Assembly (NCBI GenBank): GCA_022539475.1
Contig: VCMS01000113.1
Coordinates: 67,652 to 131,651, forward strand
DNA length: 64,000 nt
Direction: 5' to 3'
Origin: Gracilaria domingensis
Lineage: Eukaryota > Rhodophyta > Florideophyceae > Gracilariales > Gracilariaceae
The translations under genes and the position numbers were made by a program. Positions 6,980 through 62,909 of the stretch are shown here, one piece after another. The stretch's first letter is position 1. Each line of letters opens with the position of its first letter. Under the pieces are notes generated by a model. That model was not told the origin of the DNA, did not search any database, and worked only from the letters and a program-made list of their open reading frames with translations.

Positions 6980-7304
6980 GGAGGGGTAACTTTTCCGCAC
7001 AAGCGGCTGTAGCGATAAAACTTCTTAATCTTCCTTCCAGTGTCCTGGCTTCTTCTCCTTCTTCTTAGGCTTCTTTCTTCTTTATCTTCTTCTCCACTGT
7101 AAGTGGCTTCCGCATTTCGCGGCATGTTTGTTCAGCAAAAAGTTGTCCGCTTAGAGCGGCCTGGTCCGCCTGAGGCGGCTGAGTGATATGAAGTTAACTT
7201 AGTTACACCCGCTTGACGCGGCATATTCTTGCGTAATGCAATACTGTCCGCATGAGGCGGCATATTCCGTCCGAGACGGCTGCGCTCAATAGGAACGTGG
7301 GTGG
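6980..7304 (-). repeat. 3' region of element 1: purine tract and array of TCCGC-N4-GCGG mini-palindromes
   Basis: Read on the element's strand, this lies after the chromodomain stop. It holds a purine-rich run (GAAGAAGGAGAAGAAG type, about 7035-7095) that could serve as polypurine tract. It also holds seven short palindromes of the form TCCGY-N4-RCGGC at about 6993, 7108, 7148, 7169, 7208, 7248 and 7267. No LTR end (TGTAGAGC) is visible before the gap. Confidence 0.5.
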
Positions 7305-8928: not shown

Positions 8929-9150
8929 CTAGTGCTCTCCCTTGATATCAAGGACAACCGTTGTGTCGGTGACAGCAATAACCCGGAACGGGCCGTCCAC
9001 GATAGGAGAAAGCTTGTGGCGCTTCTCCTTTTCAGGGTTGTAGTACTCCTTCCGTACGAAGGCAAAGCTACCTTCCCTGATCTGAGGGGCATTCTTACGC
9101 ACTCTAGCGTCGAAATTCCGCTTGTATGCGGCCTGGGCCTTAGCGATATG

Positions 9151-9972
9151 CTGCCAACTGTAGGGATAAGTTCTTAGCCAGTCCTTCCAGGCGTCCCTGT
9201 GTAGACGGGCGACGGAACTTATCCAAAGTTGGCTGTGGCTCGATAGCCACCGAAGGTGGACGCGTGATAGCACAAGCTCGACGGCGGATTCGGTCGTGCG
9301 ATGACCTGCGTATGTAGCAATAAGTTCACCGCTCGGTGTACTGTCCATTCGCGACGGGATGCTCGGCAAAAAAAAAAAACAAAATAGAAAACCAATATCA
9401 AATAAAAAATAAAAACCAACAAAACAAAATACCAAAAAAACCCCAACAAAATTACAACCAACGAATACCCAAAAAAACAAACAAGAAAAAAAAAAAGAAA
9501 ACACCAACACAAAAACAAAAACCAAAACATACAAAACACCACCAACAACAAACAACAAAACCGAAACACAACAACAAAACAAAAAGAAAAAAAAACCAAA
9601 AAAAAAAAACAAAAAAATATAAAAACACAAGAAACCCACAAACACAAAGAAAAAAAAAAAAAAACACAAACCACACCAAGAAAAAAAAGAAAAGAAAAAA
9701 AGAAAAACCCACGAATACCAGGAAAAACCGCAACAACACTTAGCGATATGCTGCCCAAACTGTAGGATTAAAGTTCTTAAGCCGTTGCCTTCCAGGCGTC
9801 CCTGTGCTAGACGGGGCGACGGAACTATCAAAGTTGGTGGCTCGATACCACGAAGTGGACGCGTATAGCACAAGCTCGAACGGCGAGATTCGAGTCGTGC
9901 GATGAACCTGCGTATTGTAGGCATAAGTCACCGCATCGGTTACTGATCCATTCGACGGATGCTCGGCAACAA
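9151..9972. other. Likely assembly artefact: duplicated integrase segment around an A/C-only tract
   Basis: 9370-9736 is made almost only of A and C on the plus strand, in irregular A runs unlike any natural satellite. The segments on either side (about 9151-9369 and 9738-9972) are the same integrase region twice, differing mainly by single-base insertions and deletions. This is the signature of a gap filled with a low-quality long read. ORFs crossing it (8929-9924, 9219-9758, 9336-9743) are spurious in that part. Confidence 0.8.
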
Positions 9973-12900: not shown

Positions 12901-13306
12901 TTGCATCGACGAAGCGGTCACAGAAGTCGCAGCCGAGGATAACCGGCGCAGCGAGTTGCTTGCAAACCAAGAAATTGAGCTTCGCCACGTAGTGGCCAAG
13001 CCTGACGAGCAGGTCTATTACTCCCACAGTCGAAAGTGGCCGATTGTTCGCATCCGCTATGTCAATCTGCGTCGCCGCACGAATGCGAGATCGCAAGTGC
13101 GGCGGAATCATCGATTCAACCAAGAAATTTGGCCTAGCTCCTGTATCGAGCACGGACAACTGCCGAACCATGTACTGGTCGGAAACACCCAGGTCGGCGT
13201 AAACTTTGTAGTTACGTTTCGCCATGACCAGGACTCTATCCGGGAACCGGCTGTTCTTAGACCGTATCCACGGGCGACGCAAGACACCAAGGTGCTCAGA
13301 GTCCAC
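9740..13306 (-). pseudogene. pol: Element 1 Pol polyprotein (protease, RT, RNase H, integrase), one in-frame stop
   Basis: The order is: retropepsin motif VLDTGARPN, RT with the catalytic YLDDIIVYS, RNase H (YAVDTDASDYQVGCAL), the integrase HHCC finger and integrase core (VAIDLLGEF, LLSDNGPQF, NGQVERFNR supply the D, D and E). The 969-residue ORF 10397-13306 stops at a TGA (10397-10399) inside the HHCC finger. The next ORF (9740-10345) continues in the same frame with CSDCAKN, so a single C-to-T change of CGA explains the break. The last ~200 bases are corrupted by indels (see the A/C tract). Pol follows gag with a short spacer and is presumably made as a fusion or separate protein; no clear slippery site was seen. 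Confidence 0.88.
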
Positions 13307-13422
13307 GTCTGCAGTGGCCAGTGTCCTCGAAAGGATTGTGACCGGGGAGCGAGGCTTCTCAGCCTCAGGCGCACTAAACCCCGTCGCTGGGGGCGCCTCT
13401 CTATTGCTGGAGGCTCCCTTGC

Positions 13423-15432
13423 TCAGTTTTTCTGAGCGTCGCCGCCAATCTGCAGAGGTTGCGATTCCGCAGGGGCGGCTACAGTTCCACCATTCGGTGG
13501 CACCGTTTCCTGGTTCCCAGGCAGAGTCTCCGCCTTCGCACGAAGGTACGATTTGTCGGGAACACGTTCCCGCTCGGCGGGCGTCAACGACTCATACTGA
13601 GGCACGATCTTCGCCATATCCCGTATGGGCATTAAGCAATTCGGAGCGATGTGCCCTGGCCTGTAACAGGTATGACAAATAAGGTGACGAAGAAGATCCG
13701 CGTTGGGCGGCCGGCGCTCCTGTCGAGGAGGGTACGGGTCCCTCCATCCAGGGCGTTGGCTTCGATATCCGCCAGAGTGCGGCACGGGCAATGCCGGGAC
13801 TTGACGTCCGGCGTACAGAGCGGGGTCTCCGTCTACTGTAGACTGCTCCGTCGTCGACGGCAATTCCGAACTCGGCATTGAAACATCGTCCTGTAACAGG
13901 TGCAGGTTATCATAACCCCCTTGAACAGAACCTCGCGAATGAGGCAGTGAGGAGTCTCGGCCTTCTACATGAAGGAGTCGGCGCGTGCGCGTCTTGATAC
14001 CAGTGCGTGCTCGAGCTGCATCTCCCTCCGCTTGGGCAAATTGAACGAGTTCCAGATAGGTAATCCGGCGTTTGTTCTCCCGATAATGGGCTACCAACGT
14101 CCGAATTGATCGGTCCAGTCCATCAACAAACATCGTACACCGCTCGGCTGCGGAGAACACGTTGCCACATCTGTGGAAAGCCTTATTGAGGCGGGTCGAA
14201 TAAACGGTTTCCGACTCTTCGGCTCCTTGCTTCGTGTCTCGTAGCGCGAGTATGGCACCTTGTATCGCATTGCCTGTCGCGTAAGAGCGCAGGAGATATT
14301 GTACCGCTTCCGGCCAGCACGTAACTCCTCCTTCGGAGGCGCGAGACGACCCACGAACCGAATTGAATTGATCTTCGGCTACACCCGTCAAAAAGTACGG
14401 CAGCGCGATGTAGGCCTGTGCCTCACTCATCCGAAGTACATCGGCTTCCGCTACGAAGCGGCTAAGAAAATCCAAGACAAGAATTGGATCTTCCCCAGAG
14501 AACTTGTGGGGCTTTAGCGTGAGCTCCATTTGTCGGAGATGATTTCGCACTTTGCCAGTCCCACGTGGGGTCCTCTGTGGCGTCGTGTCATCAAGCCGAT
14601 AATATCGGTAAGATAGTAGCTTCCGATACAGTAAGTTTGTCGGCTTCAACTCCTTCAACCCGAGGTGTCTCCGTCCTTTCGTACGGCCTCGTGCAACACC
14701 AGAGGTGGCTTCAGTAGCCCGCGAACGGGATGCACGATAGCGAGAGCGCTCTTCCGCGCTGTCCGAAGAGTCGGTAGACGACCCCTTTTTGGGGCCCTCC
14801 TCATCAGAAGAGGATGAAGAAGACGAGTCAGACTCAACCTTGACCTTCTTCTTTGCCGGACGATCCCGGGAACGGCGCGAGTGCTGAGAACCCTCAGAGA
14901 CCGGGGCTCCCGGCGCAACAGCATCAGATACGATGATTTGCTCGACCGTCTCCAGACGGGTAGCCAGGCGGTCCAGGCGTGCGGCAGCCTGCTCGTGCAG
15001 ACCAGCCGACACCTGTCGGTGTTCCATAATCTGGTTGACATCAGACCGTAAAACACGGACGTCGCTCGAAACATCCCGGACACCGGCTTCATCGAGCCGT
15101 TGCCGGAGTTTCGTAATATCCCGGATGAGGCCCACTTGGGAGTTCTGCAGGATGCGAACCTGAGCCTCTAATTCACGGAGGGTATACTCGTCGGACCGCG
15201 ACGACATAACGTCAACCGCTGCGGCGGCATCAGCCGCAGGTGCGGTCTCGGTTGGCCCACGAGTGGGTGGGGTCCCGTTATCAGAACGGCGGCCCCGGGA
15301 AGCCGGTTTCGGGTCGCCATTGCCTGGGACCTCCAGTGCGTCTTTCGGCAACGGAGGCAAACTTGCCGGCAAACCGGACGAACCGGGCACAGAAGCGGCA
15401 CGTGGCGCGCTACTCCTGCGACGGGACGACAT
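13423..15432 (-). CDS. gag: Element 1 Gag
   Basis: A 669-residue ORF, intact. Gag packages the RNA genome into virus-like particles. Order: a Pro/Ala/Ser-rich N-terminus; a coiled coil at about 80-170 (LRELEAQVRIL...LDRLATRLETVEQ); an acidic Ser tract followed by an Arg-rich segment (~190-240); a retrotransposon gag-like capsid domain at about 290-480 (FSGEDPILVLDFLSRF, YSTRLNKAFHRCGNVFS); and a CCHC zinc knuckle, CHTCYRPGHIAPNC, at about 586-599. It lies 165 bp downstream of the 5' LTR and directly before pol. The same architecture is seen in elements 2 and 3. Confidence 0.9.
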   Translation of the reverse strand: MSSRRRSSAPRAASVPGSSGLPASLPPLPKDALEVPGNGDPKPASRGRRSDNGTPPTRGPTETAPAADAAAAVDVMSSRSDEYTLRELEAQVRILQNSQVGLIRDITKLRQRLDEAGVRDVSSDVRVLRSDVNQIMEHRQVSAGLHEQAAARLDRLATRLETVEQIIVSDAVAPGAPVSEGSQHSRRSRDRPAKKKVKVESDSSSSSSSDEEGPKKGSSTDSSDSAEERSRYRASRSRATEATSGVARGRTKGRRHLGLKELKPTNLLYRKLLSYRYYRLDDTTPQRTPRGTGKVRNHLRQMELTLKPHKFSGEDPILVLDFLSRFVAEADVLRMSEAQAYIALPYFLTGVAEDQFNSVRGSSRASEGGVTCWPEAVQYLLRSYATGNAIQGAILALRDTKQGAEESETVYSTRLNKAFHRCGNVFSAAERCTMFVDGLDRSIRTLVAHYRENKRRITYLELVQFAQAEGDAARARTGIKTRTRRLLHVEGRDSSLPHSRGSVQGGYDNLHLLQDDVSMPSSELPSTTEQSTVDGDPALYAGRQVPALPVPHSGGYRSQRPGWRDPYPPRQERRPPNADLLRHLICHTCYRPGHIAPNCLMPIRDMAKIVPQYESLTPAERERVPDKSYLRAKAETLPGNQETVPPNGGTVAAPAESQPLQIGGDAQKN

Positions 15433-15579
15433 CGTTCACCGACACAGTCGGCCAATGGGCAACCAAAACAACTTCCGAAAACGGACAATGAGAGAACCGT
15501 AAGAACGGATATTCCCAACTATCTGGGCTCCAAACAAACGAACCAGCTCCAACGATTGTTGGCCAATAAAGCCGATTCT

Positions 15580-15596
15580 AGGTCGAGAGACCAGTT
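15580..15596 (-). promoter_or_regulatory. Element 1 primer-binding site
   Basis: Three bases inside the LTR end, the element strand reads TGGTCTCTCGACCTAGA. It is nearly identical to the sites of elements 2 and 3. The complementary tRNA would end in ...CGAGAGACCA; its identity is not resolved. Confidence 0.7.
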
Positions 15597-16445
15597 TGTG
15601 GTGCAAAACCCTCGACGGGAAAACAACAAACCGCGTCGCGGACGAGCACCTCAGGGTGTTCAGGCCCTGCTCCCTGTGAAGGGCAGTCGAGCGGCAGAAC
15701 CCTCCGATAGGGCCAACACGAGCCGGGTGTAAATCCGGGTGGCCCCGATCTGGGCGTGCAGTCGGAGGTAGAAGGGGTAGAATCGGCGTAGGTATCCGGA
15801 TGGTTCCGGCGAGCCACAGCGAGTGGGGGTATCCAGCCCAACGGTATGGGACGACAAAAGATCAACAAACGAGCCGCATTGCGGAGCACTGACTCGCGAT
15901 AAGCGGGAAAACTCCCGAGACGAATAGAACAAACCTACAATGTAGGGCAGAGTAGCGAAAGCCGTAAGACGGAAATGAAAACAATAAAATAGATAAGAAA
16001 AGTGCCGTGACGACGGATTAGTACTCCTCAGGGACGGAGGTTGGTTGATCAGCCCGGAATTGCGGCGGTACTCCCCAGGATGGGGCTGGTGACCGTGCGC
16101 AAGCAGCAAGAAGATCAGAGCCAAAGGCCTCGTTGAGGTTTACTTCCCGTACAGTGGCGGCAAGTGCCGCCACTTATATACGGCACTTGAAAATATCAAT
16201 TAAACTATCCGGCGCTGCCGGCCAACACACTACAGGTGTGCCCCCGTGGCCTGCTTGCAACGGGGCCCGCGCGATCGGGCCAACTTGGCACACGTGTGCA
16301 GAAATACTACCCTTCCTAGGCATACCCCAAAATAGGGGCACTACCCCAGTAGCCTCTCATAACCTGAGGTGTCGAAGCCGGTAACGGATCAACAAACTAT
16401 GAAAAGCACCTCGGTGCATCCCCACAAAGGGCGTTTTGCTCTACA
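15597..16445 (-). repeat. Element 1 5' LTR (849 bp)
   Basis: On the element strand it starts TGTAGAGCAAAACGCC and ends TTGCACCACA, with standard TG...CA ends. Limits are set by alignment to the solo LTR at 41445-42300, with which it shares blocks such as GCCGGCAGCGCCGGATAG, CCGCCACTGTACGGGAAGTA and GGATACCCCCACTCGCT. Confidence 0.82.
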
Positions 16446-16882
16446 GTGTCGTCGAGAGAGAAAGTGGTCTGCCCGAGTTAGGTTGGCTGCGAAGCCTCGA
16501 ACTCGGGGGGGTTTATATCTACAATTCTTGTGGTTCGTATACCCTAAGTTGTAACTTGCTCACCGTCTAGTCCTAAATACCCTAGTGCTGCTCACCATCC
16601 ATAACATGTAATGATGTCAGCGCACGGCTCTTCGTTATGTAGGTCGGTGGTCGGTGGCTCGCCAATCCTCACTTGGCGGCTTATGTCTTCTGTTGGAATG
16701 TTCAGGTCTTATCCATGTCCCACGGAGCGCCACGATTTTCGCTTCTGTCGATACATTTTGTCAATTTGCGGCTGGTTGGTGCTTTGCTGGCATAGTGACC
16801 TGTCACGCTCCATTTGCTTATTTAGATAGCGGTGTCGTCATCCTCATCTATCCCAGTAGTCAATCGCACCACCCGTCTCAAC
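16446..16882. other. Spacer between element 1 and a small host gene
   Basis: No coding sequence recognised. A TATTTAG at 16819-16825 is a candidate TATA element for the gene starting at 16883. Confidence 0.4.
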
Positions 16883-17290
16883 ATGTCCGCTAGAGAAACT
16901 CTGGCCGCAATGACCGACGACGACACCGACCATTCCGATGTTCCGCGTGCCAAATCAACCGTCCTGATCGAGAGCGAAGCAAAAGAAGTTACTTCGGACA
17001 CCATTCAGCTCGAGGAGGACGCCGCATTTGCGAAAGAAGACGACGTTGCCACCGAAGAACGTACCGAAGCGCAACTTTTCGCCTGCGAGGAGGCTCTATA
17101 TGACTTCCTCTTCAAGCGTGGAATATCGATGAATGAGCTCAAAGACAATCTTAACGAGCTCTCAGTACTGTTCGTGCGCGGGATTGGTGTTGGGTTGGCG
17201 CTTTCCATGATGGCGCTACGCTCTCCCTCCCGCGCACGCGCGCTTCATCTCGTTCATGACGCTGTGAAAGCTTTGTTGTCCTCTGATTGA
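16883..17290 (+). CDS. Small acidic protein of unknown function
   Basis: 135 residues from the first ATG (MSARETLAAMTDDD); the open frame extends slightly upstream without an ATG. The N-terminal half is acidic and Ser/Thr-rich. The C-terminal half is helical and hydrophobic (YDFLFKRGISMNELKDNL, FVRGIGVGLALSMMAL). A candidate TATA lies about 60 nt upstream and palindromic sequence follows the stop. I do not recognise a family. Codon texture and start context look like a real host gene, but no homology was tested. Confidence 0.5.
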   Translation: MSARETLAAMTDDDTDHSDVPRAKSTVLIESEAKEVTSDTIQLEEDAAFAKEDDVATEERTEAQLFACEEALYDFLFKRGISMNELKDNLNELSVLFVRGIGVGLALSMMALRSPSRARALHLVHDAVKALLSSD

Positions 17291-18507
17291 TATCCCTTTC
17301 TCGTATCTTCGATTGCCTCTTTGTCACAGAACTCCTGCTTCTCGATTAAATTGATTTGTATCCCCTGCTCGTATGTGTTGCGACGCGCGCGAAAGAGCGC
17401 GCCACAACTTTCTGAGCTCCCCGAAGAGAGCGCTCCACTCACTGTCCTCCAGCGTCAGGTGCTGCGCGCAAGTTCCTTTTCAGACCCTGCAGCTGGCGCG
17501 CCGCAACGTGCGGCGCGCGAGCTTTTAAAGCCTGCTTAGCGGCGGGCGCGCCGCAGCGAGCGGCGCGCGACTTCTTCATCTCCGTCGGGGGCGCGCCGCG
17601 GCGCGCGGCGCGAAACCTTATCATCCTTGCCGCCGCGTCGCAGTGCACGGCGCGTAGCGGTGGGCGCAGACGGCGGGAGTGACGGCGCAGTCCAGGGGTG
17701 GAAGGTGTCGGAGATATAGAAAAATATTGTTCGGGAGTGTCCCTGGGGTGGCGGGACACTCCCCTGCATCCGCTTCCACACTATCTTTGTGATGAAGCAA
17801 TGCTCGTAGAATATTATTCGCATACATTGCAAAATATTTTAATAAAGTCCGTGAGAAAGTAAAATTCAAAATGTCACCATAATGTTTGTGCTAAAACTTA
17901 AGAAAGTAGTATAAATTAACATCTAAGTGTGTTAACACGTACAAAAAGGGAAAATACAGTGCGTCACGTTTTTTAGGTACTTGCGGCAAATGCGACGAGA
18001 AGGTAACTGAAAATTTTATTTAGATTATTTAAAACCATCTGTTTTGCTTCAAAGTTTATTCGAGATGAGAATGAGAAACAAACCACCTTAAAAAGAAAGC
18101 AGTGTCACATTGCAGTTTTTGTAGTACGCGATGTAAGTCATGTACAGTTTGAAGACAATATCGTACGAATTGTAAGCTCTTAAGGTTTGTAAGAAAACAA
18201 AAGGTTTTCTGTTTGGGTTAAACTACAAGAACGTGTAAGATGCTGCGTAGTTGTACGTACGCACGACTTGTATTCTACATTTCACATCTCGCCATTAAAT
18301 GAAAAAGAGAGATTGAAGTGTTTTGGTGTAAAGGAATAGAGCATCTATGTTTTAAAAAACTATCAGCTGTACAGCTTTTTAAATGAATATTTTAGACCTA
18401 AAAGACGAACCGTTCGGCCGCGGCGCAAAGCGCCGCCTGCGGCCAATGGCCGCCTATTTCTTGTATCTACCAAAGATCACCTTGTGTTTATAAAGATGGT
18501 GGTTGTA
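17291..18507. other. Non-coding spacer with GC palindromes, then AT-rich DNA
   Basis: Three GGCGCGCCGC-type hairpins at 17495-17613 (entered separately). Beyond 17850 the DNA is AT-rich with no supported gene. A small GC island at about 18410-18452 contains the hairpin GCGGCGCAAAGCGCCGC. Confidence 0.5.
17495..17613. repeat. Three consecutive GGCGCGCCGC...GCGGCGCGC palindromes
   Basis: Self-complementary GC blocks at 17495-17520, 17544-17570 and 17589-17613, spaced about 45-50 bp, each followed by an AT-richer linker. They lie about 200 bp after the stop of the small acidic gene, so could be terminator- or boundary-like; function unknown. Confidence 0.6.
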
Positions 18508-42380: not shown

Positions 42381-42938
42381 TGTAGTATAGTGGATCCGAT
42401 ATGTATGGCAGGTAAGAAGGGGTATACTAGAGACTGGCAGGAAGCGCAAGGTGTCCCACGTGTGCGGAGATGGCACGCCGTGCGGACTTGTATGATACTA
42501 ACTGCACGTAGCATAGTTGTAGATAGATGGCACCCGCTCCACGTCTGGATATTTTTGCCACGTGGGCAGGGTGCCGATTCGGACTGTACGCGGTGAGTTG
42601 CAGCGTCGAGGTGCTACTTATGCACCTCCGCTCCTCCCGTACACCCAACTAGTAAAGGGTAAGCACCACCGTCCTGAACTATCTCTTCGCTAAGTCAGAC
42701 CTGCGACTAGAACCGTGACGGACGACTACTAGGTTTCCAGGCCGTTCGGACTCAACGCGCGTTTCTCGACCGCGCCTGACGCTCCCAACCGCCCAGTCTC
42801 CCTACGACCGCCCGGTGCTGGCGTTCGTTTCCACGCGTTACACTTATACCCGACCGGATCACGGGACTACACGCCCCGCTTACGAACTTACTCGGATCGC
42901 GCCTCTAGGACTCTTTCGCCTGACGGCGCTATCTCACA
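42381..42938 (+). repeat. Element 2 5' LTR (558 bp)
   Basis: TGTAGTATAGTGGATCC...TATCTCACA; direct repeat of 53066-53623 with the same length. Confidence 0.95.
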
Positions 42939-42939
42939 T

Positions 42940-42958
42940 TGGTCTCCCGACCTAGAAG
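42940..42958 (+). promoter_or_regulatory. Element 2 primer-binding site
   Basis: TGGTCTCCCGACCTAGAAG one base after the LTR; same motif as in elements 1 and 3. Confidence 0.75.
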
Positions 42959-43010
42959 TGGGATTCGTGTTTTCCGTACGGAGCAACAACAGATCTGAAG
43001 AAGATATCTC

Positions 43011-45256
43011 GTGATGGATGCACGTGACGCATCTGTGGAACCGACCGTAAGGGTCGATGTCGAAAAAGAACCGGCTCAGTCCGTCGAGCCTACTCCGCAG
43101 ACCGCTTCGGACACCGCTTCGGTTGGCCGCCGAAGTGCCAGTGGCACTACACCTGCCCCCGACTTCCACCTGGAGAACCCCGAGGTACTGTTGCGCAAGT
43201 CCTCAAGGCGCTCCGGGGCCGCCCCTGCTTCTTCCGACCGGAACAAAGAAGCTCCAGTGAGTCTGGATGGAGCCGAGTCGCTTTCGCAGCTCTCAGTTCC
43301 GACCGGACAGATCGCTTCGGATCGCACGCCGAAGACTCTACCAGAACTGTGGAAGCAGCTTGAGCCGTACTGGCATTACAAGCTGAAGAACGAGATTGAA
43401 GCTCGTGTTCCCGTCCGGGTTGAGCGTTATCTTCATGAACGCCTTCCGGAGTTATTGACCGAAGTCATCACCCCGACGGTCCGCGAGACCGCCGAGGCGG
43501 TTATACAACAGATGATACTGATCGGATTCGGCGAAGGTGAACAGGAAGACCGTCAGGCAGTTTACACGGCAACGGCAACGTTGCCACCCCTTTCCAAGTC
43601 TTTACTTGGCCGACCGGACTTAGCCACTGGCTACGTACCCGCCGAGCGGAACAATGAGCCACACCCAGAAGGGGGCCAGCAGAGTGCCCCCATGGCTCCT
43701 GTCCTCCCGGTGGTTCCTCATCGAGATGACCCGAACGGAGATTCAGACGACTCTTCTGAAGACGAGAGAAGAGGCCGCCGCAAGAAGGGCGGTAGAGCTG
43801 ATGATTCCTCCGGTTCGGATCGCCCCCGCGCCCGGAAGAACCGACGTCGTCGTAGACAGAAACGACGCTCTTCCGATTCGGATACTGATTCTGACCGCTC
43901 GGATAGTTCTGATGCCGTTTCCAGAACTGACAGTGACGAGGACTCAGACCGTTCTGATCGCAAACGCCGCTCCGATCGGCATCGTTCCCGCTCGAAGAAG
44001 GCTGCGCCCAGGCGCATCAGACCGCTGAACGAACTGTTCACCAAGGTGGTGGACTACCGTACGTATCGGTTGGACAACCGCAGTCACCGGTACAATGCGA
44101 GGGTAGCGCGCAAGATTGGGCGCTACCAGAAGAAGTTGAATGTCCAAATGAAGGGACATTCCTTCTCCGGGGCAGATTCTATATCAGTCCTGAACTTTCT
44201 GCAACGGTTCAAGACCGCTTGCAACCACAACGGACTGTCCGAGATAGCAGCACTTTGGTGCTTCCAATTCTACCTGACCGGACCGGCTCATGCTTTGATC
44301 CAGTCTAGGCTCCTGGGAGAAACGGGCGCCGTTGATGTACGTCGGGGTGAGATGCTCCGTACGTACTCGGAGGTTGTCAACTTCTTGTTGACTACGTACG
44401 CTACAGATGAAGTCATTGCTGACGCCTATGCGGATGTCACTCTGTACCGCCAGTCTTCTGGGATGTCCGAAACGGAATACTCTCAGAAACTGTGGACGAA
44501 GGCTCTCCGCTGCGGCAATGTCTTCTCCGATCGGAGATTGAAATCCCTCTTTGTGGAGGGGTTACTGCCTTCCATACGGGCGAAGGTGCGTAACCATCTC
44601 ACGACGCATCCGTCTATTGGCTATGATGCGCTCGCGAGGTACGCCGAGTCATACGGCGATACGCACCGTTCGGCGAAACGTCAATCCGTTCGGGTTGACA
44701 CGCCAACGTTGCGTCCGTCTGGAACTAAGGCAGCAGCAAACCGCTCCACGGGACGGAAGATCCTGAGCTTGCAGAACACCGAAACGGAATCTTTCGCCAC
44801 CGACTCGGACGATGGTGAAACAGTCCTTGCTTTCGGGCAAGGAAGTTCCGCCCCGTCGGTGCCGACGACACCTACGTCGGCGTCGGCTTATTCCCGTTCG
44901 GATTCTTACCGCACGGCAGCGGCCATGACACCCCAGGCGGGGGCGCAGCCCGCGCAACCCCAGAGGAAGCTCATGGATCGCCCGTGTCGGATTTGTCTAT
45001 CTAGGAACCGGATCATTGGCAGATGATCCCGCCCGGTGTTCGCGAAGCTTTACTTGCCGCACGGGAGAAGAACTACCACCTCCGCCGTGAGGAGGGTTAC
45101 TACAACCGTGACGGTGCCGCTCGGATTTCTAGTGGTGTACGTTCACCTACCCCCGTCCGGGCTACCCCTGCTGGGCGCGCTATAGATCCCCGACCGGTCA
45201 TGGTGGTCGAGGAGGACGTAGCGGCGCAGCCGGAAAACGGGACGCAGGATGCGTAG
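43011..45256 (+). CDS. gag: Element 2 Gag, one frameshift near its zinc knuckle
   Basis: The main ORF (43011-45026, 671 residues) has a Ser/Asp/Arg-rich low-complexity segment (~270-340), then the capsid-like domain (HSFSGADSISVLNFLQRF, YSQKLWTKALRCGNVFS) homologous to element 1 Gag, and the beginning of the zinc knuckle (CRICLSRN). A shift near 45000 moves the tail into the 45023-45256 frame (MIPPGVREALLAAREKNY), which corresponds to the Gag tail of element 1. The frameshift may be mutational or a sequencing error. The N-terminal coiled coil of element 1 Gag is shorter here. Confidence 0.85.
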
Positions 45257-45348
45257 AGGCGCACCGCCCTCCGGGGTCGAAGCGCCTCACCCAAGCGGAC
45301 TGTACGGATCCTGCCTCCGATTCGGACGAACAGTCGCTTTTATACGCT

Positions 45349-48300
45349 TTGGATGAGTATGAATCGACCTCGCCAGTACTGCTGCTGAGCAGCGTCAATT
45401 ATAAAGTGAATTTCTCCGTCGGCTTTCTCCGATCGGTAATGTATCCACTTAGAGGCGTGCTCGACACTGGCGCAGGTCCGAATCTCATCCACGAGCGGCA
45501 TCTCCCTCCGCACTGGAAGAATCATTTGCAACCCCGTTCGTTCAATAACATTACGGACGCTTCCCGTAATCGGATGGACATTCTGGGTGTTGTACCGCTT
45601 CTGGTACGAATTGGAGCTCTGCACGTACGGGTACCGTTTCTGGTAACGAGCAACCTTGCGGTCAGTTGCATTCTCGGTACCTCGTTTATTGACAGGTACG
45701 TTTTGGCGATACTACCTCCGAAACGGACTGTCTTGTTACGCCACTCTCACCCCGTGGCGATCCAATCCGCGTCTGGGCCGAGTACACCTCCGCCCGGACA
45801 ACCTGAGAACCCTACTCCTAACACCGAACGGATGACGCCATCGAACAAGATTCGCGTTGCCCGCCCGGTTACGATACCACCGATGTCGGAATCCCATGTC
45901 AAGGTGACCACAAAGGCCGCTGGCCTGATGTTCATTCAGGGACACCACCGTACGGCACATAAAGAAGAGCTCACTCTTCTTGCCAACGGCGTTATGGAAC
46001 ACCGACCGGATATCCCATTCTTTGTGCAGGTGGCTAACTTTTCCGACCGTCCGGTTCGCGTACATAAAGGCACAATTGTGGGCCTGGCCCTTCCGTCTCC
46101 TATCGCTCTGATAACTCCGACATTTCCGTCTCGGAGCGACGAAACTAAGGAGGGGGGCCCCAATTCCGAGTCTCTTTCCGATACGGACACGGATAAACCG
46201 ACCGGACAGCAGCCATCAACCGACACAGAGGACGACTGGATCCCGAAGGTACAGTTGTCTTCTGAGTTTGAATCCGAACGGGATAAGGTTATCGAGCTGC
46301 TAAGACCGTTTCGGGATATGTGGGACGGCCATCTTTGCCGTATCGCAGCTGCGAAGCACCGGATCCAATTGGAACCTAGTACGAAACCTATCTACCAGAT
46401 GCCATACCGAGCGGGTCCAGTGCGTCGCGAACTCGAACGCAAGGACGTCACCAAGCAGCTGGAGATGGGTGTGATTGAGCCATCCGCGGCCGAATGGGCG
46501 AGTCCGGTCGTGTTTGCTCAAAAGAAGGACGGCAGCCTACGCTTTTGCGTGGACTACCGCCGTCTAAATGCAGTTACCGTTCGGGATACTTACCCATTAC
46601 CGAGAATGGATGAGTGTATCGATTCACTCGGGGAGGCGAAGATATTCTCCACCCTGGATGCCAACAGCGGATATTGGCAGACCGAAGTGGATGAAGCCGA
46701 CCGGGATAAGACTACGTTTACTTCCCACATGGGACTGTATCGATATATTCGAATGCCGTTCGGGTTAAAGAATGCGCCAGCGACTTTCCAGAGAGCGCTG
46801 GATATCATACTGTCTCGTGTGAATTGGCAGTACGCGTTGGTCTATCTCGATGACGTAATCATCTACTCCCGCACGGTTGCTGAACATTATGACCATGTTC
46901 GGACCATTCTATCACTCCTCCGATCGGCTGGAATCACCCTACGTCTAGATAAGTGCTACTTCTTCAGTGGTACTGTCGACTACCTGGGTCATGTTATCCG
47001 TCCGGGCAAGCTACAGGTCTCTACAAAGACCCAAGATGCTATCCGAGCGGCTAAACCACCCACGAACCAGACGGAACTCCGGTCGTTCTTGGGGCTTTGC
47101 AACGTCTTCCGACGTTTCGTGCAGAGCTTTGCCCGAATTGCGGCTCCTCTTAACCGCAAGCTCGAAAAAGGCCAACCGATCAACTTCGAGACTTTGACCG
47201 ATACGGAATACGAAGCATTTGATGAGCTCCGTCAACGGTTAATACGGCCTCCCATCCTGGCCATTCCTAGGCAGGATATGCCGTACGTTCTGGACACCGA
47301 GGCTTGCGATAAACAAGTTGGATGTGTCTTGTTACAGAAACAACCGGACGGGGACCTTCTCCCAATTGGATACTGGATCCGTTCGTTAACGAAAGCCGAA
47401 CGGGCTTACTCCACAACCGAACGGGAATGCTTGGCCGTAGTGTGGGCAATACTGCACCTCCGACCGTATCTCGAGATGGGAAGATTCACACTCCGTACGG
47501 ATCACCACGCGCTGAGGTGGATACTCAACCTGGCGGATGCCTCCGGACGTCTCGCTCGTTGGCGACTCCGTCTCATGGAGTACGAGTTTGATATCGTACA
47601 CCGACCGGGTATTAAACACCGTGCCCCGGACGTGCTATCACGTATCCAAACGGACGGTGAAGACCCAACCCCTCTTGATGAAGAGGTTCCTTCTCTCCTG
47701 ATATCAGACCGAACGGAAGACGACGATGACCTCGTGGCAGACGTTGTCGTCGACGGCGATGTCATATCAGACATCGCCATCGACTGGTGCGATGAAAACG
47801 TACCGACCGGATGCCCCGAAGTCATGGCCATCGTGGAGGAGGAAACAGAAGTCCGACCGGTTACTATGGAAGAGCTCATTCGGGCTCAGGCCGAGGATGA
47901 GTACTGCAAGTCTGTACGGAAAGACGTGGGTAACGGCATTACCCTCTTCGACGTTAACCGCCACGGAGTACTTATTCGCCGCTCCCCCCTAGACGGAGCA
48001 CTACAGAAGGTAGTGCCTCGCTCCCTTGTTCCGCGCGTGCTCTATCTATCGCACTATCCGCGTTTGGAAGGACACCCGGGCGGAACTCGTATGTACACCA
48101 CTCTCCGCAGGAACTTCTACTGGCCACAGATGGCCAATGATGTATACCAAACCGTTCGGGATTTCCGCTCGTGCGCTGCTATCCGCGGCACACGACACCG
48201 TTTTCAGAAAAGACTGAAGCTCTTTCCCGCAACGGGCCCACTCGAGTTCGTGGCTATGGACATTGTCGGTCCTTTTCCGAAGTCCGTGAATGGGGCTGAA

Positions 48301-48723
48301 TACATCTTGGTGATCACCGACCGGTTCACGAAGCTCTGCAGAGCTATCCCGTTACGGTCTACCACTGCTCCAGTTGTGGCCAAAACATTTCTGGAGAACT
48401 GGGTCTATCCGTACGGGATCCCTAACTACTTACTCACCGATAACGGCCCTCAATTCGTCGCGAAGTTCTTCGAGGAAGTATGTCGCTCGCTGGGTACGAA
48501 ACACGTCACCACAACGGCATACCATCCGCAGACGAATGGCCAGGCCGAGCGGTTCAATCGTACGCTGCTACAGCGCTTGCGACACTACGTTGCGGATCAC
48601 CAGTCAAACTGGCACGCATACGTACTGCCGCTTACGTACGGATACAATCTGCAGGTTCACCGAAGCACGGGCACCACGCCATTTGACTTGGCGTTAACCC
48701 GTGTACCGAGAATTTCGTTCTAA
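45349..48723 (+). CDS. pol: Element 2 Pol polyprotein (protease, RT, RNase H, integrase)
   Basis: 1124 residues, uninterrupted. Protease motif VLDTGAGPN (~37-45). RT with RFCVDYRRLNAVT and catalytic YLDD (~499-502). RNase H (YVLDTEACDKQVGCVL). Integrase with HHCC finger and D, D35E core: MDIVGPF (~969), LLTDNGPQF (~1029) and AERFNR (~1066). The first finger Cys is replaced (VRDFRSC where element 1 has C-S-D-C), which may weaken the zinc site. The reading is cut at a TAA (48721-48723) that is caused by a one-base shift; the C-terminus continues from 48774 in another frame. Confidence 0.92.
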   Translation: MDEYESTSPVLLLSSVNYKVNFSVGFLRSVMYPLRGVLDTGAGPNLIHERHLPPHWKNHLQPRSFNNITDASRNRMDILGVVPLLVRIGALHVRVPFLVTSNLAVSCILGTSFIDRYVLAILPPKRTVLLRHSHPVAIQSASGPSTPPPGQPENPTPNTERMTPSNKIRVARPVTIPPMSESHVKVTTKAAGLMFIQGHHRTAHKEELTLLANGVMEHRPDIPFFVQVANFSDRPVRVHKGTIVGLALPSPIALITPTFPSRSDETKEGGPNSESLSDTDTDKPTGQQPSTDTEDDWIPKVQLSSEFESERDKVIELLRPFRDMWDGHLCRIAAAKHRIQLEPSTKPIYQMPYRAGPVRRELERKDVTKQLEMGVIEPSAAEWASPVVFAQKKDGSLRFCVDYRRLNAVTVRDTYPLPRMDECIDSLGEAKIFSTLDANSGYWQTEVDEADRDKTTFTSHMGLYRYIRMPFGLKNAPATFQRALDIILSRVNWQYALVYLDDVIIYSRTVAEHYDHVRTILSLLRSAGITLRLDKCYFFSGTVDYLGHVIRPGKLQVSTKTQDAIRAAKPPTNQTELRSFLGLCNVFRRFVQSFARIAAPLNRKLEKGQPINFETLTDTEYEAFDELRQRLIRPPILAIPRQDMPYVLDTEACDKQVGCVLLQKQPDGDLLPIGYWIRSLTKAERAYSTTERECLAVVWAILHLRPYLEMGRFTLRTDHHALRWILNLADASGRLARWRLRLMEYEFDIVHRPGIKHRAPDVLSRIQTDGEDPTPLDEEVPSLLISDRTEDDDDLVADVVVDGDVISDIAIDWCDENVPTGCPEVMAIVEEETEVRPVTMEELIRAQAEDEYCKSVRKDVGNGITLFDVNRHGVLIRRSPLDGALQKVVPRSLVPRVLYLSHYPRLEGHPGGTRMYTTLRRNFYWPQMANDVYQTVRDFRSCAAIRGTRHRFQKRLKLFPATGPLEFVAMDIVGPFPKSVNGAEYILVITDRFTKLCRAIPLRSTTAPVVAKTFLENWVYPYGIPNYLLTDNGPQFVAKFFEEVCRSLGTKHVTTTAYHPQTNGQAERFNRTLLQRLRHYVADHQSNWHAYVLPLTYGYNLQVHRSTGTTPFDLALTRVPRISF

Positions 48724-49436
48724 ATGAACCTAGTTCCGCTACGGATCCAACTACGCCGACACAACCTACGCCGGTGCAGATGAAGCGTTACACATTACGC
48801 CTACTGAAGGCGACGCTTCAATCCGCTCGGAACCGACTCACGAACGCGCAACGGCGTTATAAGGAGGACTTCGATAAATCCGTACGGGTGACGCCAACGT
48901 TTACGGCCGGTGAGGAAGTATTCCTCGACCGCCCGAAAACTACTCCGACCGGTGGTGTTCTGGACGAACACGAAAGGACCTCACGGAAACTGTTACCGAA
49001 GACAACAGGACCGTACGAGGTCGTTTCCGCCACGGACACTACGGTCACTATCGACGTTGACGGCATCAATGATACCGTCAGCGTCGACCGCGTCACACGC
49101 GCCCCCGCTCGGAAAACATCACATCCAGTGACTTCCGAACGGCAACGTGACATATCTGCCGACCCGGACGGCCCCTTCGCCGATGAACCCGTTTCGGAAC
49201 CCGCTAACACCTCAACTGGACCATCTGATGCTGCAGAACACCGCTCGGATACCACCGGAGTCGTGGAGAAGATCCTGACTCACGGAGTCTCCGACGACCC
49301 TCCTCATGGAATGGTTTACCGTGTACGGTGGTATGGATATGGTGCTGCGGGTGACTCCTGGGAACCCCCGGAGAACATCCCGCAGCACTTCCTCGCGCGC
49401 TACTGGAAGCGCATAAGCCGAACGGAGTCGTCTTAA
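48724..49436 (+). CDS. Element 2 integrase C-terminal region with chromodomain
   Basis: Continues integrase after the one-base shift near 48720. From ATG 48774 it has a helical KATLQSARNRLTNAQRRYKE segment, the GPY/F-type fold (TTGPYEVVSATDTTVTIDV), a Pro/Ser-rich linker and a C-terminal chromodomain at about residues 160-218 of this ORF (VVEKILTHG...MVYRVRWYGYGAAGDSWEP) with the aromatic cage residues present. It is homologous to the element 1 tail. Chromodomains in this retrotransposon lineage bias integration into heterochromatin. It ends one base before the first TCTAGGAGGGGGG tract. Confidence 0.88.
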
Positions 49437-49520
49437 TCTAGGAGGGGGGGATCACTCCCCTTTTCGACCACTCCCCTTTTCGATCACTTCCCTTTTCTCA
49501 CTCCCCTTTTCTCCCTTTTA
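49437..49520 (+). repeat. Upstream copy of the polypurine tract and CACTCCCCTTTT repeats
   Basis: TCTAGGAGGGGGG (49437-49449) directly after the chromodomain stop is identical to the tract before the 3' LTR (53051-53063). It is followed by about four direct repeats of CACTCCCCTTTTCG (49453-49520). Confidence 0.7.
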
Positions 49521-50821
49521 TCGCCCCGAACGGCCTTCGAATGGTGCTCTGAAAGAAACGGAGTTTCTACTAACTCTTAACATTCTTACAGTTATTACGC
49601 ACTAACTACTGGCCTCAAAGCTTAACGCATACGGGATATGGTAGTACCGGACGGGCTGAGTCGAGTACAGCAAACGGAATTCAGTTCTGACGCGTTTCAC
49701 CCTTATCATCTCGCGTTACAAGGTTGGAGTACGTTTCCTGTCGATTGTCAGAATCTGTCATAATTACTTGTACTTTAGCCTGGATCATACGTCATGACCT
49801 AGTGTGAGAAATGCTCTGTCCATTACTGAAGACAGATTTGGGATCCATCAAGTTTTACCCTTGCCTTCCATCGATGCGCGAAAACGGTTACCATCGAGCT
49901 CTCCCTCCTTTTCTCGATGTTCTCGCACCACAAGCGGAGAACCGTACGGGTTATTTCATAACTGGTAATCATCTGGTTTCAGTCTTACTTGACTTTCTGT
50001 TCTGTGAATAGAAACGTCCGCCAGGCACTCGTCCTAAAATCATACAGCTCTGGAACCCTTTGACTCCGTGAATTTGAATAACGAACTACCCGGTACCTGC
50101 TCTAACTCGCGAAATCAGGAGGCGCATGTCACTGTGGAAACGTTCTCTACATTACCGCCTACCGAACGGAGAAAGTTCTGAGACAAACCACCACATCCCG
50201 CGTGCAGCACAATGGTAATCTCAGAGTCATCTCCTCTTCCCAACGTACTTTGCTGCCCTCAGGCACGGGCTCACATCGGCTTCAAATGCTTATGAGTACG
50301 CTGTTCCAGAATGGCAACGATTTAAGTGCCCGCAGCTCACTCTGCGCTGCCAGCAATGACGAGCAGTGTGCCAAGTGCTTGAGGAGCGCGCATTGCATAC
50401 CGCTTTTGAAGCGCATGCTTCCAAATCGGCCGCGTGGGCGCGCGGCTACTTGCAAGGATAATCAAAAAATTTGCAGGCGGAAATTACCCCTCGAAACCGT
50501 GCTGAAAACGGCGATTCTTTGTTTTGGCGATATCTCGGGAACGGGGGAGTTTCAGCGCCTCGCAATAGCCGATTTGGACTCCTGGCACCATTCAAATACT
50601 TTGCGATTTTTTGGAATGTGCCGCACTCGCGCTACATGCAATACTATATACTTAATCGGCTACCCAGTCCTGCAACGCGCGCGGTACCTCAATGCAAGAA
50701 TATTTACGATTTTTTGAGCGCGAATTCTGCGCTGCGGCTGGCGCCGCACCCAAAGACATCTATGCTTAACCACTACATCGACCGGGCTATCCAGATGCTA
50801 GTGGTAGTAGACAATGGTTGA
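49521..50821. other. Element 2 non-coding spacer between pol and the antisense gene
   Basis: 1.3 kb with several CCGNNCGG octamers (for example near 49527, 49649, 49943, 50164). The short ORFs do not look coding. May hold the 3' end of the antisense transcript. Confidence 0.5.
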
Positions 50822-52942
50822 TCAAGGCGTCGCTGGCCTGTTCAACGTCTCTGCAGGTCTCACGCTACCGTTTTCAGGCGACGAAGCTCCGCCTACGGGC
50901 TGCACTTCGGGTGCACATGGGTCAAGTTGCTGTATGGTACCGTCCGGTTGAAGTACTGGAACTGTTCCGCTCCTCACGGCTCCCATCACACTGTCTGCCA
51001 TGTCCACGAGCCGCTCTGTATCAGAGGCACTGCGTCGAAGACGCGTTCTCAACACCGGCGCTATGGACCCAACTATTGCGCTCGTGGTTGGGGGAACCCC
51101 GCGAGAGCGAATTGCAGACCGAACGGCGCCAAACCATGCTGGAGCTCGGTTCCGAGCAGTAATGAGGCTTCTACTCGCACTCCCTGCGCGATTCAATACC
51201 GTTGTCGGTGGTTCTGCCTGCTGATCGATCACTGCTTCGCCGAAAGTATCGATATGTTGCTCTGCAATGTCGCTGGCGAGATCGCTCATGAACAGAAGGA
51301 GGTCTATGACACCCAGCGTATCACCGCGCACCACTCGTTCCGCCCGGTGAAGCTGCTCAACCCACGTTCGGGAGCGTAACAATGCGTCTAGAACAGAAGC
51401 TGGTGGCGTCTCACCGGCCAAGCCGCAAGCCTGCTGAAGAGAACGGAGCGCTGCTCGCTCTCGGCCTTCGTCTCTCCCACCGGCTTCGGACATCTGATGT
51501 GCTTGTTCTCTGAATGATTCGGGCTGGCACTCCGGCGGCTGTTGAGGATTATCAATTTCCATGCAGTCGACGCGGGCGTGTGTTGGGCTCCGCTCCTGGT
51601 TTGCATTCATGTAGCCGAGCGGATAGAAGTCAGGCACGTCAGGAAAGGACCATGATGGGCGTGCGTGAGCAAGAAGGTAGCGATGCGTTAGAAGATATGG
51701 GTCACTCGGCATCTTTGGCATATCTGGAAACTCCTCCGTGCGGGGATCGAACCACAAGTACCCGGGTGTAACGGTCCAATCCGTCATGACAGAGAGGTGC
51801 AACCATCGCTCAACTTTCATGGCCCTAAACTTGGTACCTCGCAGGACGTTTTGGAGCCCCATCTTCATGACTAGCGACACCAAAGCGTACGGAAGTGGAA
51901 AGAGGCGTCCAAGCCCTGCTGGTTCCCTCGACTCTGGCTTTCCAGGAAAACCAGAGAACGGGTTAAGCCTAGGATCCTCTGAACGAGTGAATACCTTCAC
52001 TCCTTCCGTCGCCGCTTGTAGAAAGGACATCAATGCGCAAATTGCCCACTCCGCATAAGCCGTACTCATGATCCGATCGGCTATGGGGCTTTCCCAAAGA
52101 ATGTCGTGAGAATAGTACGCCAATACTGGAGTCGTCGTTACGGCAAGGTCGCGAGAAACGTCTAGCTAGTCCCATTTTGGTGGACGTTTGACATAGAATG
52201 ACTTCCGTTCGGACGAGTGAATGTCGAAGAACTCAATATTATGCCAGCCGATCATGTATCCATCTTGCTTCCCCCGTATTCGTGCCTCCGTGGCTACATT
52301 ATCGCCCCAACGTTGACGATTTAGCCAGTACAGCGTGTCGTAGGGTGGCGAAAACATCACGAGCTGCAGTGGGTTACTTTCCGAACGGGGAAATTCCGGT
52401 TCCTCTAGCATACGACGGACCATATCTCGCATTCTACCTTGGTAGTCGAATTCCTCAACGCATCGGAGAAAAGGCATATCGCAACGTCCGACAGTCTCAT
52501 CGTTCGCATCGCCTTTTACACCTGACAAATGCCTCCAGCGCTGTTCCCACGCCTCTTTTCGACTGCGTTTCGTGTTCCGTCCGGTTCTCTGACGCACCGT
52601 CCGCCTCTCGGGGATAGCGGCAAACCGTTGCGAGTCTAGGTATTCAACCAGAAACTCGTCTGTGACAAATTCCTCAACTGAGAATGGCGGCCCATTCTGT
52701 GGTTCTCGAAAACGACTCTCAGTGTCTGGTGGCGGGCAACCGCGACGATTGCGGTGATCAAATCTCTGACCCGGTAATGGTGTTTCGAACGTACGGGGTA
52801 TTCTGACGCCGCTGGGATTATCCCCGGCCATTTCGCCGTTCGGAACTCCTCGCGAGCCAAAAAGAGGTCGACGCCGTGGGACGGGGATGTCGTCGAGATC
52901 TGTCGGCATGACCGGGCGTGTAGGTTGTGATGGCACTGACAT
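50822..52942 (-). CDS. Antisense accessory gene of element 2, conserved in element 3, unknown function (one in-frame TAG)
   Basis: About 706 residues if read from ATG 52942 (MSVPSQPTRPVMPTDLDD) to 50822. The open frame extends further up into the 3' LTR but has no better start. An in-frame TAG at 52166-52168 splits it into 353- and 433-residue ORFs that lie in exactly the same frame, explicable by one C-to-T change of CAG. The N-terminal ~200 residues are basic and Arg/Pro-rich. The middle has LQLVMFSPPYDTLYWLN and, after the stop, an aromatic-rich domain (STAYAEWAICALMSFLQAA, FTRSEDPRL, LFPLPYALVSLVMKMGLQN, TDWTVTPGYLWFD). The C-terminal third is helical and Arg/Ser-rich. The aromatic domain is clearly homologous to 63483-64000. 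No family is recognised. SPPY recalls methyltransferase motif IV, but no SAM-binding motif was found. Confidence 0.75.
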
Positions 52943-53050
52943 CTGCGCTTGATGGGATGAAATATGCACCGTCACGGACGGAGCCACGGAGCGAAAGTGC
53001 AGCGTGTCGCGTGAAGGCTGGACTGGTGGCGCGTCGTGGGCGTCGCGCAC

Positions 53051-53065
53051 TCTAGGAGGGGGGTC
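53051..53065 (+). promoter_or_regulatory. Element 2 polypurine tract
   Basis: TCTAGGAGGGGGGTC immediately before the 3' LTR, the usual plus-strand primer site. Confidence 0.85.
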
Positions 53066-53623
53066 TGTAGTATAGTGGATCCGATATGTATGGCAGGTAA
53101 GAAGGGGTATACTAGAGACTGGCAGGAAGCGCAAGGTGTCCCACGTGTGCGGAGATGGCACGCCGTGCGGACTTGTATGATAGTAACTACACGTAGCATA
53201 GTTGTAGATAGATGGCACCCGCTCCATGTCTGGATATTTTCGCCACGTGGGCAGGGTGCCGATTCGGACTGTACGCGGTGAGTTGCAGCGTCGAGGTGCT
53301 ACTTATGCACCTCCGCTCCTCTCGTACACCCAACTAGTAAAGGGTAGGCACCACCGTCCTGAACTATCTCTTCGCTAAGTCAGACCTGCGACTAGAACCG
53401 TGACGGACGACTACTAGGTTTCCAGGCCGTTCGGACTCAACGCGCGTTTCTCGACCGCGCCTGACGCTCCCAACCGCCCAGTCTCCCTACGACCGCCCGG
53501 TGCTGGCGTTCGTTTCCACGCGTTACACTTATACCCGACCGGATCACGGGACTACACGCCCCGCTTACGAACTTACTCGGATCGCGCCTCTAGGACTCTT
53601 TCGCCTGACGGCGTTATCCCACA
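53066..53623 (+). repeat. Element 2 3' LTR (558 bp)
   Basis: TGTAGTATAGTGGATCC...TATCCCACA; about eight differences from the 5' copy. Confidence 0.95.
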
Positions 53624-59567: not shown

Positions 59568-59745
59568 GGGATTGTGATCAAGTGGTACTCTTAAGAGTGT
59601 GAAATCTTTGAGATTGGGTTCCTCTTTTGGGATATTGGTTTCGATTGATATCGTGTTTTGGTTTAGTTGGATCATTTTCTCGTTGTTCTCCGCTTTTCGG
59701 AAGTTGTGGTGAGCGTTTTCGTTCGCACTGAATCTTCGGTTCATC

Positions 59746-61153: not shown

Positions 61154-61154
61154 T

Positions 61155-62622: not shown

Positions 62623-62909
62623 ATCCGATTGATTCGGTTTGTAATCGAGAAGGATGTGATGGCACCGTAGAAGTGGCTGCGTCCAATAGAAATGTGGTTG
62701 CCACTACTGTGGAGTCTAATGCAGGAAGAGATGCGCCACCAGGGATGGTCAAGTTTAAACCTTTGCCAGTCAAGGTGCGTAGTGAAGCCCGCACAGGAAG
62801 TGAACTGAGGTCAGTTTTTGAAGTTAATGTGGATTGCCACCCTGTGCAGGGTTCTGCTTCATCTGAATCCTGGAAGGACACGGATCTTCGCGACACCTAT
62901 ATGGGTTGA
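62514..62909 (+). other. Open frame after the RT break, probably linker remnant
   Basis: 131 residues, Ser/Thr/Val-rich with no motif. Position suggests the linker after integrase, brought next to RT by deletion. Could be chance. Confidence 0.3.

Follow-up and report, generated by a model that had tools for sequence, protein, structure and literature searches.

Analysis of a 64,000-nucleotide window of the Gracilaria domingensis genome (contig VCMS01000113.1, positions 67,652 to 131,651, forward strand) showed that one retrotransposon in it, element 2, was saturated with the octamer CCGNNCGG (CCG-N2-CGG) from one long terminal repeat (LTR) to the other. The sequence pattern identifies these octamers as one form of a family-specific set of very short inverted CC(G)...(C)GG units that runs along the whole element and occurs in two or more geometries; a second retrotransposon in the window, element 1, carried a different version. 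The best explanation, which we hold tentatively and at a little under even probability, is that the units are dispersed recognition sites for the element's own Gag on the genomic RNA, a packaging code.

Element 2 is classified by its sequence as a chromovirus-like Ty3/gypsy retrotransposon, since LTRs, gag, pol in the order protease, reverse transcriptase (RT), RNase H and integrase, and a chromodomain were all present. Its features, including the open reading frames (ORFs), are given below in window coordinates; N2 and N3 stand for CCG-N2-CGG and CCG-N3-CGG (CCGNNNCGG), and expected values come from codon-preserving shuffles.

42381..53623, plus strand: element 2, Ty3/gypsy LTR retrotransposon with chromodomain; 79 CCGNNCGG and 30 CCGNNNCGG
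42381..42938, plus strand: 5' LTR; 4 CCGN2CGG and 2 CCGN3CGG
43011..45026, plus strand: gag; 13 N2 and 11 N3 sites (2.3 and 2.6 expected)
45349..48723, plus strand: pol, with protease, RT, RNase H and integrase; 30 N2 sites (4.7 expected)
48774..49436, plus strand: chromodomain ORF; 8 N2 sites (1.4 expected)
50822..52123, minus strand: antisense ORF AS1, second half of the antisense gene; 6 N2 sites (0.9 expected)
52166..53227, minus strand: antisense ORF AS2, first half of the antisense gene; 4 N2 sites in the part outside the LTR (0.5 expected)
53066..53623, plus strand: 3' LTR; same CCGN2CGG and CCGN3CGG sites as the 5' LTR

The preliminary description of this DNA had put the number of octamers in element 2 at about 60; the count of 79 makes the saturation larger than was claimed, and each of the 15 example positions lay at most 11 nt from a real site, five of them exactly. 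Dinucleotide shuffles of element 2 contained 6.0 ± 2.3 octamers (maximum 12 in 500), and a second set of 500 gave 6.0 ± 2.4 (maximum 15). The N3 unit was also raised, the 30 sites comparing with 5.9 in 500 shuffles (maximum 13). No comparable rise was found at the other spacings of CCG and CGG (N0, 2; N1, 4; N4 to N15, 1–11 each). Over the gag, pol and chromodomain ORFs together there were 51 N2 sites vs 8.4 in codon-preserving shuffles, and among 1000 codon shuffles of each ORF (gag, pol, chromodomain and both antisense ORFs) the observed N2 count was reached in none. The octamers stood in every reading frame, and protein sequence does not explain them, as had been stated before; the shuffles that had been named as a possible refutation gave counts nowhere near those observed. 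Composition, dinucleotide and codon effects were thereby ruled out as the cause. The spacers and flanks varied from site to site, and the octamers are therefore unlike copies of a larger repeat.

The density of octamers along element 2 was uneven: the first 7.1 kb had 61, the following 3.6 kb, which end at the 3' LTR, had 14, and the 3' LTR itself had 4. The gaps between sites showed no clustering. N2 and N3 sites taken together were spaced more evenly than random in gag-pol (coefficient of variation 0.68; 0.7% of 2000 simulations as low); neither the N2 sites alone nor the hairpins of element 1 described below were more even than random. Three other candidates were set aside. A direct repeat CCGNCCG (31 occurrences) was accounted for by C as the second spacer base of the octamer (26/79). 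CpG decay yields no spacing, and element 2 had an observed/expected CpG ratio of 1.20, compared with 0.88 for the host stretch. Longer hairpins were not supported for element 2, as no clear complementarity was found inside or outside the arms.

Outside element 2, the remaining 52.8 kb of the window contained 13 CCGNNCGG. The host genome is eukaryotic and 77.9 Mb in size, and the octamer occurred 19,100 times in it vs 16,877 times for the reversed control word; the saturation is therefore not genome-wide. A genome scan for octamer pairs at most 30 bases apart likewise gave no genome-wide excess (423 vs 487 for the reversed control).

Element 1 lies on the minus strand of the window, and the following features were recognized in it.

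6980..17480, minus strand (sense): element 1 as scanned; left end cut by a run of N, 3' LTR not seen
10397..13306, minus strand: pol, with RT, RNase H and the start of integrase; 38 mini-hairpins vs 6.0 in codon shuffles
13423..15432, minus strand: gag, with a CX2CX4HX4C knuckle; 37 mini-hairpins vs 6.0 in codon shuffles
15597..16411, minus strand: probable 5' LTR; 72.6% identical to the LTR-like stretch at 41479-42300

That stretch adjoins element 2 on its left and belongs to an element-1-related family; copies that match most of it at 76–82% identity are common in the genome.

Earlier it had been said that element 1 and host DNA show few octamers. This stood for the octamer itself, of which element 1 had 5 (4.6 in shuffles), but element 1 proved to be saturated with a different inverted CC...GG unit. 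It contained 145 mini-hairpins of the form CCNN-(3-6 nt)-N'N'GG, vs 12.7 in 500 shuffles (maximum 24) and 15.5 expected from the same words at loops of 12–41. Element 2 had no excess of this unit (14 vs 14.1). Because element 1 combines 145 hairpins with 5 octamers and element 2 combines 14 with 79, inverted CC(G)...(C)GG units are read as having a geometry particular to each family: 4-bp arms with freely covarying inner pairs in element 1, and CCG-N2(or 3)-CGG with no longer arm in element 2. In element 1, CCG...CGG pairs peaked at spacings of 6–7, and the base just inside the arms was complementary in 24/28 (N6) and 32/36 (N7). Both inner pairs were complementary in 42 of 96 CC-N8-GG and 53 of 110 CC-N9-GG words, where 6–7 were expected, and the third pair was GC in 74 units, CG in 25, TA in 24 and AT in 22. 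Other outer dinucleotides were raised less (CG 45 vs 19.7, CT 32 vs 9.3, CA 21 vs 8.4). Both inner pairs of CC-N8-GG were complementary in 15/38 and 13/42 cases in two partly read relatives of element 1 (65–76% identity in aligned blocks), and in the sequence C39f arms of 3 bp around loops of 4 nt were favoured as well (28/46 with a complementary third pair). The candidate relative L048 was rejected: it was mainly sequence between two LTR copies, had 0 octamers in 9 kb and was used as background.

The octamer array is not peculiar to one element, as judged from the relatives of element 2. Among 41 non-self match rows, 15 places were read as larger stretches, 10 of an 85–99% class and 5 of a 73% class; octamer retention was computed for eight of the ten close copies and spacing controls, which are CCG and CGG triplets at other spacings (N4-19), for four of those eight. 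Eight of the ten copies, which are 85–99% identical over the pol probe, contained 53–80 octamers in 14–15 kb including flanks; of the other two, C26- had 60 and C36+, with a shorter match, had 32. Their 5' flanks (410 or 1380 bases each) had no octamer in nine copies and 1 in the tenth. Octamers of the copies were found in element 2 as well in 38/41 cases for C123+ (40/62 for triplets at N4-19; p 0.0009), 37/42 for C42+ (27/52), 33/39 for C103- (27/50) and 27/31 for C36+ (26/40). In the reverse direction, 38, 37 and 33 of the 61 octamers of element 2 were kept in C123+, C42+ and C103-, vs 40, 27 and 27 of 74 control pairs. Of these 61, 56 were each present in one or more of seven copies, and the losses were scattered. 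From this sharing it follows that most of the element 2 sites in the 61-octamer block are old and were kept by the lineage leading to element 2. Beyond the chromodomain the copies aligned to element 2 DNA in patches only; this region held 14–32 octamers in 2.3–4.4 kb in the six copies where it was delimited, and the weakly alignable 3' region of three copies held 31–32 in 4.3–4.4 kb.

The 73%-identical sequences L029-L033 form one family, the statistics of which rest on L030, and they had 30–40 octamers per 6.6–10 kb. In L030 pol, 69.5% identical to element 2, 11/16 octamers stood at exact element 2 positions, compared with 2/22 for triplets at N5-19 (p 0.0003). Conservation in related copies, the second check proposed earlier, thus showed octamers that recur and are kept better than triplets at other spacings; the sites seem to be retained better than control words, which points to selection, and gag, pol and the antisense gene seem to bear a second, selected message on top of their coding sequence. 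CC-N4/5/6-GG words were also raised as a whole in the L030 family (105, 129 and 88 vs 43–76 at other spacings); the third pair was often not complementary, G stood at -2 and the spacers were A-rich, a looser version of the unit.

The LTRs of element 2 were 558 bp long and 98.6% identical to each other, and the flanks ATAGG and ATAGA, matching at 4/5 bases, are a possible target-site duplication. AS1 and AS2, near the 3' LTR, matched two parts of one protein in relatives; the first ATG of the AS2 ORF lay within the 3' LTR, and in C123+ a single open frame covered the first part together with the beginning of the second. By eye, CTAGGAGGGGGG was read at 49438-49449, directly after the chromodomain ORF, and again at 53052-53063, directly before the 3' LTR. 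This internal polypurine-tract-like copy suggests either addition of the antisense-gene region 3' of an older end or a second plus-strand primer.

The antisense product had been put forward as a candidate reader of the motif, and this was not supported. C42+, C42- and C103-, in which both LTRs were present, kept dense octamers and had no match to the antisense gene outside the LTR, and no homologue was found in element 1. The antisense gene therefore seems dispensable for the octamers, its protein is disfavoured as reader, and the octamers are probably not its target. A homologue of the antisense gene was present at 63504-63998, minus strand, in the decayed element at 59700-64000, yet this element contained just 2 octamers over 4.3 kb (1.0 in shuffles). 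The antisense-encoded protein had no Pfam family, its only three matches in the PDB were all insignificant, and its AlphaFold model was unusable (pLDDT 33). Its two homologues both ended in RG-rich tails, a possible RNA-binding feature as far as sequence goes.

L016:1116-2675, P0006 and P0007: antisense-encoded protein family without Pfam match; relatives of 824 amino acids (aa; Gracilariopsis chorda) and 769 aa, with RG/RGG-rich tails

The decayed element also showed a mild hairpin excess (12 vs 4.0; maximum 14 in 500 shuffles), and genome copies of 60500-63500 were about 87% and 65–77% identical.

The reader would more plausibly be a protein common to both motif classes, as Gag is. The predicted structure of element 2 Gag had a confident helical core (residues about 360–560) with weak matches to Arc and retroviral capsids. 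The C-terminal knuckle of Gag was CX2CX4HX4C in element 1 and C39f, CX2CX6HC in the element-2 family (C12-, C36+ and C103-) and CX2CX6CC in the L030 family; the gag frame of element 2 itself ends within the knuckle, and no knuckle was matched in C123+ and C42+. In the element-2 and L030 families, the altered zinc knuckles CRICLSREPDHC and CRICLSREPNCC, respectively, replace CX2CX4HX4C at the Gag C-terminus.

The bases beside the units had a strand direction. In the last 3.4 kb of element 1, G preceded 33 and A followed 32 of 50 units, whereas the mirror-image bases, C after and T before, were seen in 8 and 6. When all 74 CCG-type units of element 1 were counted, G before (37) exceeded C after (19) and A after (37) exceeded T before (13). 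The pattern was similar but weaker in gag (G before 17/37, A after 15/37; mirrors 10 and 5) and mixed in the leader part (10/20 and 6/20; mirrors 7 and 6). In the L030 family, G stood at -2 of N2 and N3 sites in 22/42 cases in gag-pol (control 16/67, p 0.004; mirror C at +2, 11/42) and in 12/22 in the oppositely coded region (control 12/49, p 0.017; mirror 7/22), or 34/64 vs 18/64 when pooled; L029 and L033 agreed with L030, the 3' part of L033 being less clear (5/13). These directional flanks point to the genomic RNA or to one strand of the complementary DNA (cDNA). Free covariation of the inner pairs in element 1 is predicted by pairing and not by a protein reading two half-sites on double-stranded DNA.

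We propose that recognition takes place on a single strand of the element's nucleic acid, most probably the genomic RNA. The nucleocapsid end of the element's own Gag would be the reader and, with about one site per 70–140 nt, would compact the RNA of its own element while passing over host mRNA and the RNA of rival families. Gag and the geometry of the units would co-evolve, a two-nucleotide spacer going with the CX2CX6HC knuckle in the element-2 family and a hairpin with the CX2CX4HX4C knuckle in element 1. A wider generalization is possible, on balance doubtful: that red-algal LTR retrotransposons carry a distributed self-identity code of ~100 short inverted units along the genomic RNA, in an arm and spacer geometry that is specific to each family and recognized by the Gag of that family, so that families sharing a host would each package their own RNA and not that of the others. 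Such a code would turn over by point mutation inside coding sequence, its geometry switching as Gag changes.

Several results weigh against recognition by Gag on RNA. Direction was slight in element 1 pol (G before 12/38, A after 14/38; mirrors C after 17, T before 8) and weak in element 2 itself, both at N3 sites (A after 20, T before 10; p 0.10) and in the N2 spacer (G 12, C 37 vs control 249, 354; p 0.02). The main unit of element 2 would require a two-nucleotide loop as a hairpin, the bases inside and outside its arms had no clear pairing beyond chance, and its 28 N3 units had a mean predicted pairing probability in local folding of 0.10. For the 74 CCG-type stems of element 1 this value was 0.33 in the sense and 0.28 in the antisense strand, compared with 0.28 for 62 control pairs. 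Wobbles are usually tolerated in RNA hairpins, and the missing G.U excess speaks against them: GU/UG and AC/CA numbered 10 and 6 at pair 3 and 5 and 20 at pair 4 of element 1, and in two of its relatives GU/UG numbered 3, 5, 2 and 1 vs 6 AC/CA each. In relatives of element 1, CC..GT (10 vs 2.9, 12 vs 2.7) and its mirror AC..GG (8 vs 4.7, 11 vs 4.5) were raised, which outermost-base pairing does not predict. Clear compensatory changes between element 1 and its relatives were few. Of 40 element-1 match rows, 14 were examined, the window's own copy included; no constraint on stems was seen among these 14 young copies, in which stem variation was slightly higher (G/C 48/346 vs 167/1754; A/T 15/104 vs 137/1617). 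Finally, knuckle type fitted motif class in all 9 sequences with a matched knuckle, but these make up two classes and few lineages. Three stem differences occurred in at least 8 of the 14 young copies; one turned A-T into G.U and one C-G into U.G, which weakly supports the RNA reading, and the third broke the unit.

The main rival for element 2, which we consider rather unlikely, is a dimeric, sequence-specific protein of the element or the host that reads CCGNNCGG on double-stranded DNA, for example in anti-silencing or chromatin targeting like VANC. Half-sites that are strictly palindromic, have one dominant spacing (79 N2 vs 30 N3) and extend into no longer stem would suit it, as would the nearly symmetric flanks of the element 2 N2 sites and the lack of a G.U excess in element 1. 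It leaves unexplained the inner-pair covariation of element 1 and the directional flanks of element 1 and L030, and the dimer suggested earlier is therefore not supported as a general reader. In Pfam scans of the main element ORFs, the only DNA-binding domains were integrase parts, the chromodomain and a sub-threshold zinc knuckle in element 1 gag, and the antisense gene was not found in three motif-keeping copies. Distinctly unlikely is that the units act as single-stranded hairpins in cDNA, in strand transfer, protection or the integration complex, rather than in RNA. Watson-Crick pairing without wobble excess agrees with this, strand direction fits one cDNA strand equally well, and DNA hairpins tolerate very short loops; against it, 3-bp arms are marginal in DNA as well, and we know of no LTR-element protein that needs dozens of cDNA hairpins. 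A host RNA-binding factor recruited for export, stability, translation or escape from small-RNA defence would account for the recurrence of the CC...GG theme in several families of one host, but one factor would not predict mutually exclusive geometries per family, and the octamer is just slightly above its control word genome-wide, which makes this reading very unlikely. That the units have no function and arose incidentally from composition, codon use, the copying of a small mobile repeat or templated mutation is scarcely credible: the elements are richer in G+C than the host stretch used for folding (0.54–0.55 vs 0.46) and density varies along element 2, but the shuffles fall far below the observed counts, particular spacings alone are raised, flanks and spacers vary by site, and the sites outlast control words.

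Among the other contents of the window, one host gene and two further ORFs were recognized.

26823-28592: threonine dehydratase, host gene product; 83% identical to an Agarophyton chilense protein and 78% to a Gracilariopsis chorda protein, which marks the host as a Gracilaria-like red alga
3485-5407, minus strand: 640-aa ORF with an N6/N4 DNA methylase domain, in a eukaryotic genome
37047-38738, minus strand: 563-aa ORF with homeodomains, between elements 1 and 2

How Gag discriminates its own RNA from that of the host or of rivals is unsettled. A motif that can be counted along the entire element, and whose two geometries exclude each other in sister elements, opens the question to direct testing. 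If the reader were a DNA-binding protein instead, this would be a VANC-like system in LTR elements. Among the literature matches listed, the titles and abstract openings described neither such arrays nor a VANC-like system in LTR elements, and the CCGNNCGG string occurred in two papers, both on Streptomyces.

Among known systems, fungal Zn2Cys6 factors bind as dimers to everted CCG/CGG sites, with CGG half-sites and a spacing code. The half-sites and spacing code are alike here; the difference is that no Zn2Cys6 domain was found in Pfam scans of the main element ORFs (the host proteome lay outside the scan), and element 1 would stay unexplained. VANDALs, to which element 2 had been likened, are DNA transposons. 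Their motifs are mainly non-coding, same-orientation tandem arrays, spread by tandem repeats and bound on double-stranded DNA (PMC5735166). The likeness survives in that dense, element-specific short motifs are not driven by coding, are kept in a lineage and differ in version between families, and that motif density seems to matter. It fails in that the present elements are LTR retrotransposons with inverted units in coding and non-coding sequence alike, inside gag and pol and with no sign of a tandem origin, and that pairing-like covariation occurs in one family.

The multiple dispersed packaging signals of RNA viruses are many stem-loops with a common recognition part along the genomic RNA (PMC6281560), and this fits the sequence pattern of element 1. 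Here it is the stem base CC/GG that stays constant, frequently preceded by G and followed by A, and the loops are free; the unit of element 2 is no normal stem-loop. For the LTR retrotransposon Ty1, the mechanism by which Gag recognizes its own RNA is likewise called unclear (PMC8396678); there, Gag selects its own RNA with a structure-dependent preference and palindromes of the 5' region are used in RNA dimerization. That much resembles the proposed role of Gag here, with the difference that the cis-acting sequences of Ty1 lie within the first 580 nucleotides (PMC8396678), whereas the present units span the whole element.

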